64,000 bases of DNA from Synechococcus sp. WH 7805 (lineage in GTDB: Bacteria; Cyanobacteriota; Cyanobacteriia; PCC-6307; Cyanobiaceae), in contig NZ_CH724168.1 of assembly GCF_000153285.1 (NCBI RefSeq), positions 2,023,455 to 2,087,454 of the forward strand. The letters are read 5' to 3'. The position numbers and the translations under genes were made by a program. This document shows positions 35,381-38,978 of the stretch, one piece after another. The notes beneath the pieces were generated by a model that did not search any database, was not told where the DNA came from, and saw only the letters and a program-made list of their open reading frames with translations. Every line of letters begins with the position of its first letter. Within the stretch, counting starts at the first letter, position 1.

Positions 35381-35485
35381 TATCAATTAATGCGGTTAAG
35401 GGCGAAAAAAGGACCCTCTGCGAAGTATCCAAACCGCGTACCGTCACAGGCTCTCTGGTTAAGCTCCGGTTAGCGGTCAGATTTA

Positions 35486-35525
35486 CCTCACGCCTTGTGC
35501 GTAAACCCTCTTTTTTGGTGTGAGG
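35486..35525 (+). promoter_or_regulatory. Possible leader hairpin covering the porin 1 ribosome-binding site
   Basis: CCTCACGCC (35486-35494) pairs with GGTGTGAGG (35517-35525) with one G-U, leaving a 22-nt loop. The downstream arm contains the GAGG used as ribosome-binding site 5 nt before the ATG. Pairing would hide it. The upstream arm is absent from the second porin leader. Confidence 0.45.
35518..35525 (+). promoter_or_regulatory. Candidate Yfr1 small-RNA target site, porin 1 leader
   Basis: GTGTGAGG is the exact complement of CCUCACAC, the core of the conserved unpaired ACUCCUCACAC segment of the cyanobacterial small RNA Yfr1. It covers the ribosome-binding site. In Prochlorococcus Yfr1 is known to repress outer-membrane porin mRNAs, so gene type and site position both fit. 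Confidence 0.6.
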
Positions 35526-35530
35526 TTTTC

Positions 35531-37144
35531 ATGAAATTGTTCCAACGCCTTTTGGTGGCTCCTGCCGCCCTGGGCCTGCTGGCTCCGATGGCTGTCAATG
35601 CCACTGAGCTCAACATCGACGGTGTTTCTGATTACGCCGCTTCCGGTGAGCAGGTCACCAGCATCACTCAGTTTTCCGATGTGTACCCCACCGACTGGGC
35701 ATATCAGGCACTGAGCAACCTGATCGAGCGCTACGGCTGCGTGGCTGGCTACCCCAACGGCACGTACCGTGGCAACCGGGCCATGACCCGCTTTGAAGCG
35801 GCTGCTCTGCTGAATGCCTGTCTCGACCGCGTCACTGAAGTGACCGACGAGCTGAAGCGCCTGATGAAGGAGTTCGAAAAGGAACTCGCCATCCTCAAGG
35901 GCCGTGTGGACGGTCTTGAAGCCCGCGTGGGTGAACTGGAAGCGACTCAGTTCTCCACCACCACCAAGCTGAAGGGTCAGACCACCTTCGTGACTGGTGC
36001 ATCTACTGCAGGTAGCAGCGTCAGTTCTGCGGCTGACGATTACAACCAGTCCTTTGGTGCCGTAACGTTCAACTACGACTTGCGTCTGGCACTCGACACC
36101 AGCTTCACTGGTAAGGACCTGCTCCGGACTCGCCTGCGTACTGGCAATTTCGGTAACTCCGTGTTTGGCAACGGCCTGACTGCCATGGAGGTCGCCTTCG
36201 AAGAGCCTTCCGGCGCGAACAGCGTTGGTATTGACCGGGTCTTCTATCAGTTCCCCATCGGCAGCAGCTTCACCGCAACCGTCGGTGCTCGCGTTCGTCA
36301 GGACGACATGCTGGCTGTGTGGCCTAGCGCTTATCCCGCTGACACGATCCTCGACATCTTCACCTACGCCGGTGCCCCAGGTACCTACAACCTCTCTCTG
36401 GGTGCAGGTGCTGGCCTTAGCTGGAGTAACGACGGTTTCAGCATTAGTGCTAACTACGTCAGCATTAATGGCCAAAATTCCGCTTCGGGAACTGGAGATC
36501 CTTTCAATCCCTGCGACGATACGACTGGTGGTATTGGTACTGATTGTTCCGGTTCTAACGGAACTGTTCAGGTTGCCTACACCGCTGACAATTGGGGTAT
36601 CGCTGCTGCGTACAACTATGCTTCCGGCGATAACGGTGTCGGCCTCTATTCCGGCAACGGCACTCCTACCGCCAACATTCTTCAAACTGGTGGTGCCAAC
36701 AACTCAGTTGGTATCAGTGCTTATTGGTCTCCTGAGGAGTCCAGCTGGATTCCCAGCATCAGCACTGGTTGGGGTCTGAATGACAATGCTGGCGTCGACG
36801 GACTCACGAAGAGCTCCACGTCCCAGTCCTGGTATGTGGGCCTTCAGTGGTCTGATGTCTTCCTGAAGGGCAACTCTGCTGGTATGGCCGTCGGTCAGGC
36901 CACATTCGTGACTGCAGCAGACTTCACCAGTGCTGGTAAAGATGCTCTGGGCACTGACTGGGTCGGAGACGGTAACTACGCCTGGGAGTGGTGGTACAAG
37001 TTCCAAGTCACCGACAACATCTCTGTGACTCCTGCACTGTTCTACCTGAGTGCTCCCCAGGGCTACATCTTCCGTATCGTCAACGAGAAGGATGACACCT
37101 TCAATAACTTCGGCGGTCTGATCAAGACCACCTTCACTTTCTGA
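35531..37144 (+). CDS. SLH-domain outer-membrane porin, copy 1 (Som type)
   Basis: A 537-residue cyanobacterial porin. Signal peptide residues 1-24 (cleavage near VNATE), SLH domain about 47-105 (FSDVYPTDWAYQALSNLIER) that binds the peptidoglycan-linked polymer, a coiled-coil stretch about 103-140 (ELKRLMKEFEKELAILKGRV), then an OprB-like beta-barrel to the C-terminal phenylalanine (LIKTTFTF). It forms channels for small solutes; some members are called iron-uptake porins. ATG at 35531 follows GAGG. The first 468 nt and the 32-nt leader are almost identical to copy 2. Barrel sequences differ, with Cys-containing loops here (FNPCDDTTGGIGTDCSG). Confidence 0.92.
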   Translation: MKLFQRLLVAPAALGLLAPMAVNATELNIDGVSDYAASGEQVTSITQFSDVYPTDWAYQALSNLIERYGCVAGYPNGTYRGNRAMTRFEAAALLNACLDRVTEVTDELKRLMKEFEKELAILKGRVDGLEARVGELEATQFSTTTKLKGQTTFVTGASTAGSSVSSAADDYNQSFGAVTFNYDLRLALDTSFTGKDLLRTRLRTGNFGNSVFGNGLTAMEVAFEEPSGANSVGIDRVFYQFPIGSSFTATVGARVRQDDMLAVWPSAYPADTILDIFTYAGAPGTYNLSLGAGAGLSWSNDGFSISANYVSINGQNSASGTGDPFNPCDDTTGGIGTDCSGSNGTVQVAYTADNWGIAAAYNYASGDNGVGLYSGNGTPTANILQTGGANNSVGISAYWSPEESSWIPSISTGWGLNDNAGVDGLTKSSTSQSWYVGLQWSDVFLKGNSAGMAVGQATFVTAADFTSAGKDALGTDWVGDGNYAWEWWYKFQVTDNISVTPALFYLSAPQGYIFRIVNEKDDTFNNFGGLIKTTFTF

Positions 37145-37159
37145 TTGAAGATGCCCATG

Positions 37160-37221
37160 AGCCCCGTTTCGGGGCTTCACTCCTCACCTTTCAAGCCCTC
37201 CGCTGTCGCGGGGGGCTTTTG
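37160..37221 (+). ncRNA. Yfr1-like two-hairpin element in the 3' region of porin 1
   Basis: Hairpin AGCCCCG/CGGGGCT (37160-37176), a single-stranded linker holding ACTCCTCACC (37179-37188), then a terminator hairpin GCCCTCCGC/GCGGGGGGC (37195-37203 and 37208-37216) with TTTT. Yfr1 has the same order of parts with ACUCCUCACAC in the linker. Nine of its eleven conserved bases are present in order. At minimum this is the terminator of porin 1; whether it is a stable small RNA is an inference. Confidence 0.4.
37195..37221 (+). terminator. Terminator of porin 1
   Basis: Stem GCCCTCCGC/GCGGGGGGC (one G-U) with TGTC loop and a TTTTG tail, 50 bp after the stop codon and preceded by a second short GC-rich hairpin. 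Confidence 0.8.
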
Positions 37222-37321
37222 CATGAAAGATCAACAGGTCTTGATCAGTTCTTAACGCTGCTGAAAGTGAATTGCGAGTAGTTTGCGGCCTGCGCGTATT
37301 CCGCGTAAATCCTCTTTTTTG

Positions 37322-37329
37322 GTGTGAGG
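37322..37329 (+). promoter_or_regulatory. Candidate Yfr1 small-RNA target site, porin 2 leader
   Basis: The same GTGTGAGG as in copy 1, 5 nt before the ATG and covering the ribosome-binding site. The surrounding 32 nt (37303-37334) differ from copy 1 at two positions. Confidence 0.6.
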
Positions 37330-37334
37330 TTTTT

Positions 37335-38978
37335 ATGAATTTGTTCCAACGCCTTTTGGTGGCTCCTGCCGCCCTGGGCCTGCTGGCTCCAATGGCTGTC
37401 AATGCCACTGAGCTCAACATCGACGGTGTGTCTGATTACGCCGCTTCCGGTGAGCAGGTCACCAGCATCACTCAGTTTTCCGATGTGTACCCCACCGACT
37501 GGGCATATCAGGCACTGAGCAATCTGATCGAGCGCTACGGCTGCGTGGCTGGCTACCCCAACGGCACGTACCGTGGCAACCGGGCCATGACCCGCTTTGA
37601 AGCGGCTGCCCTGCTGAATGCCTGTCTCGACCGCGTCACTGAAGTGACCGACGAGCTGAAGCGCCTGATGAAGGAGTTCGAAAAGGAACTCGCCATCCTC
37701 AAGGGCCGTGTGGACGGTCTTGAAGCCCGCGTGGGTGAACTGGAAGCGACTCAGTTCTCCACCACCACCAAGCTGAAGGGTCAGACCACCTTCGTGACTG
37801 GTGGTGTGATCGCAGGTGGTGACAGCGTTGCTGGAGAATCATTCAGCCGTGCAGGCCTCGGTGGTGCCGATGCCTACAACAGGGAATACGGTGCTTTCAC
37901 CTTCAACTACGACCAGCGTCTGTCTCTGAACACCAGCTTCACGGGTAAGGACAAGCTGTTCACCCGTCTGCGTACTGGCAACTTTGATAACAATGCTTTC
38001 GGTGGTGATGGTGTCAACCTGACTGCCCTCGATATCGCTAGCAGCACAGAAAACAGCGTCACGATTGACCGTCTGTATTACAAGTTCCCCGTAGGCGAAG
38101 AGTTCACGTTCATCGTTGGTGCGCTGGCTCGTAATACAGAGTCTCTGGCGATGTGGCCTTCGAAGTACAACAAGGGTGGCGCAAAGATCCTTGATTACTT
38201 TGCTGTTGCCGGTGTACCAGGTGTCTACAACAAAGAAACTGGTCAGCTGCTTGCTGCTTATTGGAAGCAGAAGGTCGACAAAGGCGATCCTGCCTTCAGT
38301 GTCAGCGTTAACTACGTTGCTGATGATGGTGAAGGGAACAACTCGGATTCCTCCACGGGTGGATTCGCGACTGACAACTCCCGTGCCAATCTCCTGGCTC
38401 AGCTGGGTTGGGGCAATGGTCAATACGGAGCTGCCTTCGCTTACCGCTATGGTCAGTGCCGTTCAGCCTTCCGTCGCTCCACTTCGTTTGTTCAGAACGG
38501 TAATTTCAACCTGAATTGCCAGCCTGGTGATGATTCCCGTTCATCCAACAGCTACGCGTTGAATGCCTACTGGCAGCCGGAAAATCCTGGTTTTATCCCT
38601 TCGATTTCCGTCGGTTGGGCGCTCAATAACATCTCCGGCGACAACATTCTGGATGGTACCTACACCACATCCCAAAGTTGGTTCACGGGCTTGCGTTGGG
38701 CCGATGTCTTCCTGAAAGGAAATGATCTCGGTTTCGCCTTTGGTCAGCCCACCTTCGCCACAGCCCTCAAAGGAAGTGATACACCTTCTGATGGCAACTA
38801 TGCCTTCGAGTTGTACTACAACTTCCAGGTGACTGACAACATCGCTGTTACCCCTGCTCTGTTCTACCTGTCTCGCCCGATGGGCCAGAACACCCGGAAC
38901 CTTAAGGTTGATGGCACTGGTTATGACGGTCAGTTCAACGTGTTTGGCGGCCTGATTCAAACCACCTTCAAGTTCTGA
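37335..38978 (+). CDS. SLH-domain outer-membrane porin, copy 2 (Som type)
   Basis: A 547-residue paralogue of copy 1 located 1804 bp downstream of it. Residues 1-156 (signal peptide, SLH domain, coiled coil and first barrel strand) are identical apart from Lys2Asn; the DNA of this part differs at five of 468 positions. After KLKGQTTFVTG the barrels diverge strongly, sharing only strand motifs such as DVFLKGN, NFQVTDNIAVTPALFYLS-like segments and the final LIQTTFKF. The pattern suggests recent gene conversion of the 5' half or module exchange. ATG at 37335. It has its own leader and a terminator. Confidence 0.92.
   Translation: MNLFQRLLVAPAALGLLAPMAVNATELNIDGVSDYAASGEQVTSITQFSDVYPTDWAYQALSNLIERYGCVAGYPNGTYRGNRAMTRFEAAALLNACLDRVTEVTDELKRLMKEFEKELAILKGRVDGLEARVGELEATQFSTTTKLKGQTTFVTGGVIAGGDSVAGESFSRAGLGGADAYNREYGAFTFNYDQRLSLNTSFTGKDKLFTRLRTGNFDNNAFGGDGVNLTALDIASSTENSVTIDRLYYKFPVGEEFTFIVGALARNTESLAMWPSKYNKGGAKILDYFAVAGVPGVYNKETGQLLAAYWKQKVDKGDPAFSVSVNYVADDGEGNNSDSSTGGFATDNSRANLLAQLGWGNGQYGAAFAYRYGQCRSAFRRSTSFVQNGNFNLNCQPGDDSRSSNSYALNAYWQPENPGFIPSISVGWALNNISGDNILDGTYTTSQSWFTGLRWADVFLKGNDLGFAFGQPTFATALKGSDTPSDGNYAFELYYNFQVTDNIAVTPALFYLSRPMGQNTRNLKVDGTGYDGQFNVFGGLIQTTFKF

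Follow-up and report, generated by a model that had tools for sequence, protein, structure and literature searches.

Repression of outer-membrane porins by the small RNA Yfr1 has been established in two cyanobacteria. In Prochlorococcus MED4, according to the account of the work of Richter and colleagues given in PMC6778093, Yfr1 represses the porins PMM1119 and PMM1121; a fusion carrying the PMM1121 leader was repressed about 4-fold by Yfr1 in E. coli and was restored by Yfr2, an RNA that contains the complement of the Yfr1 motif (PMC6778093). In Nostoc sp. PCC 7120 the porin alr0834 is repressed by Yfr1, mutation of the core abolishes the effect, and most of the predicted Yfr1 sites are located in the translation initiation region (PMC6974561). 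A first-pass annotation of the window, i.e. of the whole stretch of 64,000 nucleotides analysed here, had relied on this target class, which is thus documented in both strains, when it proposed that Yfr1 jointly represses two tandem porin genes.

Both genes encode porins, as had been claimed, and they are of the som type. Porin 1 (537 residues; 35531..37144, + strand) and porin 2 (547 residues; 37335..38978, + strand) each score above the cut-off of the NCBIfam iron uptake porin model por_somb (NF033921) and possess both the SLH and the OprB domain. The first ~480 coding bases of porin 2 are nearly identical to those of porin 1 (37335-37814 and 35531-36010, respectively), the two genes being divergent afterwards, which suggests, as far as the sequences can tell, gene conversion or modular duplication. 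The core GTGTGAGG is found on the + strand at 35518-35525 and at 37322-37329, in either case 5 nt upstream of the ATG (35531 and 37335) and spanning the GAGG, exactly where the first-pass annotation had placed it. Its complementarity to the Yfr1 core was verified against the Yfr1 of the same genome and proved even longer, since with the preceding G included the match covers 9 nt, GGTGTGAGG (35517..35525 in the porin 1 leader and 37321..37329 in that of porin 2, both + strand) with CCUCACACC. In both genes the core complement therefore falls within the translation initiation region (GGUGUGAGG with CCUCACACC), and both sites are kept in the leaders of the family. Because the two leaders, like the initial ~480 coding bases, are nearly copies of one another, the two sites have to be counted as one observation of a single duplicated sequence, and independent support can come only from other genomes, where it was indeed found. 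The additional argument that the site belongs to the part of the leader kept between the copies is correct in that about 34 nt are common to both, but it is weak as evidence because the copies have been homogenised.

The genome, 2.63 Mb in size and 99.99% complete, contains a single Rfam match to Yfr1 (RF01116, 71.6 bits; C2:797769-797825) with the core intact, so that the check proposed by the first-pass annotation, a search for Yfr1 in the complete genome, gave a positive answer. The gene is flanked by its usual neighbours, a guaB-like ORF upstream and thioredoxin (trxA) downstream (L001), and its RNA has the two hairpins around a single-stranded ACUCCUCACAC. A Yfr2-like Cyano-1 RNA with GUGUGAGGAGU is present in the same genome (L002 1446-1515, - strand). 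A second GTGTGAGGAG...GAAACAAG context (L007) may represent another Yfr2-type copy. It is highly likely, by comparison with related genomes and by analogy with the two strains studied, that Yfr1, a constitutive small RNA, targets the mRNAs of both porins and lowers their translation jointly. The single-stranded CCUCACACC of Yfr1 would pair with GGUGUGAGG at the porin ribosome-binding sites and block binding of the 30S subunit, thereby lowering the translation of both porins together, while Yfr2-type RNAs carrying GUGUGAGGAGU would be expected to titrate Yfr1 and to relieve the repression. For the pairing in the cell, the translational block and the relief by Yfr2 we infer what has been described in other cyanobacteria.

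The frequency of the octamer is unremarkable. GTGTGAGG shows no enrichment, either in the window (2 copies versus 2.9 +/- 1.5 in shuffled versions) or in the genome, where its 49 copies are fewer than the 68 of a reversed-pattern control. Only three of these 49 copies are spaced from a plausible start as a Shine-Dalgarno sequence would be, namely those of the two porins and one before a weak glycosyltransferase-like ORF; a further copy that appeared to be start-proximal was rejected, being inside an mfd-like gene. It is the position of GTGTGAGG that constitutes the signal; its raw count carries none. Among the other three porins of the genome, two are without the site and one has TTGTGAGG. The duplex between Yfr1 and the porin leader was calculated at -17.1 kcal/mol, a value equalled by 4.4% of random 60-mers from the window, and the ranking by duplex energy was discarded as evidence, the porins being no outliers. 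A chance frequency in the window and a duplex energy that is not significant by itself are what a fortuitous match multiplied by gene duplication would produce; such an origin is, however, contradicted by the conservation of the site in nearly all orthologous leaders of the family and in many from elsewhere in the phylum, and it is almost certainly not the explanation.

The survey of conservation within the family covered the porin leaders of 61 genomes, almost all of which belong to different genera. The exact GTGTGAGG was found 3-9 nt before the start in 77 of 94 leaders. In a second count, anchored on GAGG alone in order to avoid selection by the site itself, GTGT directly preceded GAGG in 77 of 83 leaders and in each of the 44 genomes represented, compared with a rough background of 3/66 for other ORFs; the base 3' of GAGG was A in 93% of the anchored leaders, and the columns further out varied. 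Among named genomes, including Synechococcus WH7803, the site was present before 47 of the 55 porins with a full N-terminus and before none of the 24 whose match begins after residue 3. In genomes of the same genus it precedes almost all porins matched over the full N-terminus, in some cases at 10-12 nt from the ATG. No clear pattern of covariation was seen in the family leaders between the nucleotide flanking the Yfr1 core and its counterpart in the leaders themselves.

Outside the family, 64 porin leaders from 24 genomes of other cyanobacterial families were analysed, and all 24 genomes have a Yfr1 match, which exceeds the Rfam cut-off in 22. The commonest 7-mer in these leaders is GTGTGAG (30/64), often located 8-15 nt from the ATG in the form of GGTGTGAGT or GGTGTGAGA and without GAGG, for which reason a Shine-Dalgarno function fails to explain it. 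Since this 7-mer is an exact complement of Yfr1, porin control becomes a candidate conserved function for a small RNA that is nearly universal. The leader conservation reaching beyond the Shine-Dalgarno sequence recurs in the family, named, same-genus and other-family genomes, and the GTGTGAGG-type site, as judged from the leaders compared, is kept far beyond the needs of a ribosome-binding site.

These counts bear on the reading that GTGTGAGG is merely a strong Shine-Dalgarno sequence inherited with a conserved porin 5' end, its match to Yfr1 being incidental because the Yfr1 core resembles an anti-Shine-Dalgarno sequence. A GAGG 5 nt before the ATG is in fact a good ribosome-binding site, the two copies in the window are duplicates, and the site is kept in some genomes that are without an Rfam Yfr1 match. 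On the other hand, the GTGT, which lies outside the Shine-Dalgarno sequence, is conserved equally to the GAGG; other families keep GGTGTGAG at 8-15 nt from the ATG, the GAGG often being lost (GTGTGAGT); in the Yfr1-less genomes that retain the site, Yfr10-like RNAs carry the motif; and Shine-Dalgarno sequences in Prochlorococcus have been reported to be no more frequent than expected by chance (PMC6778093). Inheritance of a mere ribosome-binding site is accordingly regarded as improbable, and the leader sites of the two porins are very probably, on this comparative evidence, real repression sites of the kind known from the two species.

Several genomes differ in the small RNA itself, although each pattern of loss or replacement described here is a single case. 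In genome G025 the guaB-trxA spacer (L171 1421-1649) still contains the 11-nt Yfr1 core, both hairpins are eroded (-6.6 versus -23.8 kcal/mol), and the site is missing from all three porins. G010 and G039 keep the leader site; neither has a Yfr1 match, but each possesses a Yfr10-like RNA in which GGAC and GTCC enclose the motif and a terminator follows. The leader site is likewise kept in G008, which has no Rfam Yfr1 match. Yfr10-like RNAs consisting of GGAC or a similar sequence, ACTCCTCACAC, GTCC and a terminator were seen at L172, L179, L163-L167, L176 and L182-L184, all of them in genomes where no Rfam Yfr1 was found. In G049 a Yfr1-like match of 36.8 bits (L221) represents a variant in which ATTCCTCACAC replaces ACTCCTCACAC, and this genome has one porin with TGTGTGAGGAAA, a complement of 11 nt.

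In the predicted folds of the window the site is about half unpaired for transcripts with 5' ends up to -40; a consensus promoter scan found no promoter for the porins. In a transcript whose 5' UTR exceeds ~45 nt, the folds predict full pairing of the porin 1 site, the stretch ACCTCACGCC (35485..35494, + strand) forming 10 base pairs with GGTGTGAGGT (35517-35526) if the start is more than ~45 nt upstream; this pairing element was not seen in relatives. A CCTC box in the porin 1 leader (35507..35510, + strand) could, according to the predicted folds, close a weak 4-bp hairpin on the GAGG, and that of porin 2 (37311..37314, + strand) has the same predicted arrangement. Many family leaders of the GG type share the order CCTC...GGTGTGAGG, in which CCTC lies a few nt upstream of the site; GG-type leaders, those of the window included, have this box in place of the small hairpin seen in other leaders. 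The 40 nt upstream of the site are more stable than their shuffled versions (mean z -1.8, versus -0.2 to -0.7 for upstream control stretches), and a small hairpin a few nt 5' of the site occurs in many family leaders, its sequence differing between genomes (e.g. L065, L075, L121 and L145). As a guess, the leader hairpin might act as a 5' stabiliser in the manner of ompA.

The Yfr1 core itself recurs at the other end of porin transcripts in relatives. CCTCACAC was found in the 160 nt that follow the stop codon in 22 of the 68 porins that have the leader site, as against a mean of 0.22 and 2 at most in the shuffle control and 0 occurrences of the reverse complement; among porins without the leader site it was found in 1 of 36 (Fisher p = 0.0003, a value that ignores relatedness). 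All 20 distinct elements folded are predicted to present the motif unpaired in a hairpin with 8-15 enclosing pairs and a loop of 12-16 nt, and most are far more stable than versions with shuffled flanks. The trimmed stems differ in sequence in 15 of 16, and because they differ in sequence as well as in length, RNAalifold gave no consensus for the aligned 3' hairpins. Two pairs changed on both sides in the four hairpins that can be aligned are weak alone; the case for the hairpins is based on them together with the shuffled-flank tests. In two whole genomes with 18 pattern matches, stable hairpin loops holding the motif were found only in porin 3' UTRs. The named carriers are Cyanobium and freshwater Synechococcus, and many of the carrier porins are arranged in tandem, the element being separated from the following leader by a T-rich hairpin that resembles a terminator. 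Hairpins with CCTCACAC in the loop were noted at the Cyanobium-type loci L054, L058, L059, L060, L063, L065, L067 and L234, and at the further ones L243, L258, L280, L283, L289, L294 and L299.

In the window the 3' UTR of porin 1 contains ACTCCTCAC (37179..37187, + strand), which is identical to the Yfr1 motif in 9 of 11 nt. In the predicted fold ACTCCTCACC is single-stranded between two hairpins, so that the Yfr10-like placement of the motif in the loop of a stem, seen in Cyanobium-type relatives, is not seen here. The Yfr1-like element is absent from the 3' UTRs of same-genus relatives, and a single copy in a window is close to the number expected; ACTCCTCAC was for these reasons rejected as a functional element and is likely due to chance. 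The same observations concern the suggestion that the main partner of the leaders is another RNA with the same core, either an RNA of the Yfr10 type or an element in the porin 3' UTR, Yfr1 itself being minor. Yfr10 has the motif, and some of the targets, in common with Yfr1 (PMC6778093), Yfr10-like RNAs replace Yfr1 where it is missing, and relatives carry the 3' UTR hairpins with CCTCACAC. In the present genome, however, the full 11-nt motif is confined to Yfr1 and to the strand antisense to the Yfr2-like gene, none of the 47 CCTCACAC sites is held in a strong hairpin loop, and the copy in the 3' UTR of the window is imperfect and not conserved. A principal role for such an RNA is therefore considered very unlikely, and Yfr1 is retained as the presumed partner of both porin leaders.

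In the Cyanobium/Synechococcus lineage the loop CCUCACAC is the exact complement of the leader of its own porin and of that of the tandem neighbour. The 3' UTR hairpin of freshwater and related Cyanobium/Synechococcus may, as a tentative proposal with rather less than an even chance of being correct, be a feedback RNA built into the porin transcript. The predicted hairpin could be freed from the 3' end and repress porin translation in trans, it could pair with its own leader in cis, or it could trap Yfr2 and in this way free Yfr1. No report of such porin 3' UTR hairpins was found in the literature searched, and if expressed they would represent a new mode of self-regulation of porin transcripts.

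The small RNA MicF of Escherichia coli blocks translation of the porin mRNA ompF. This regulation, mentioned in PMC6202907, resembles the present case in that a small RNA would block a porin mRNA, but both the RNA and the porin family are unrelated. Small RNAs derived from 3' ends, described in cyanobacteria (PMC8136909) and reviewed in PMC9438474, offer a model for the predicted porin 3' UTR hairpins. These hairpins are also similar to Yfr10 (PMC6778093) in that the loop above the stem holds the Yfr1 motif, yet they are predicted to sit within porin transcripts. With the Yfr1 regulon of Nostoc, the two porins have in common an outer-membrane porin target (alr0834) and a site in the translation initiation region (PMC6974561); whereas that study stressed cell-wall genes and differing roles of Yfr1 in distant strains, the present survey points to porins as shared, and suggests porin leaders as a common Yfr1 target class across cyanobacteria despite the different roles assigned. 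The closest counterpart is the pair PMM1119/PMM1121 of MED4, which, as far as it is described in PMC6778093, agrees with the present locus in the small RNA and its core, in the porin family, in the duplication of the porins and in the site in the leader, and differs from it in that here the genome is that of a marine Synechococcus-like organism, the leader is of the GG type, the complementarity extends over 9 nt and the repression is predicted from sequence. Both porin leaders join this known class as additional members, so that two well-supported targets are added to the Yfr1 regulon, and the breadth of their conservation strengthens the case for porins as its core target.
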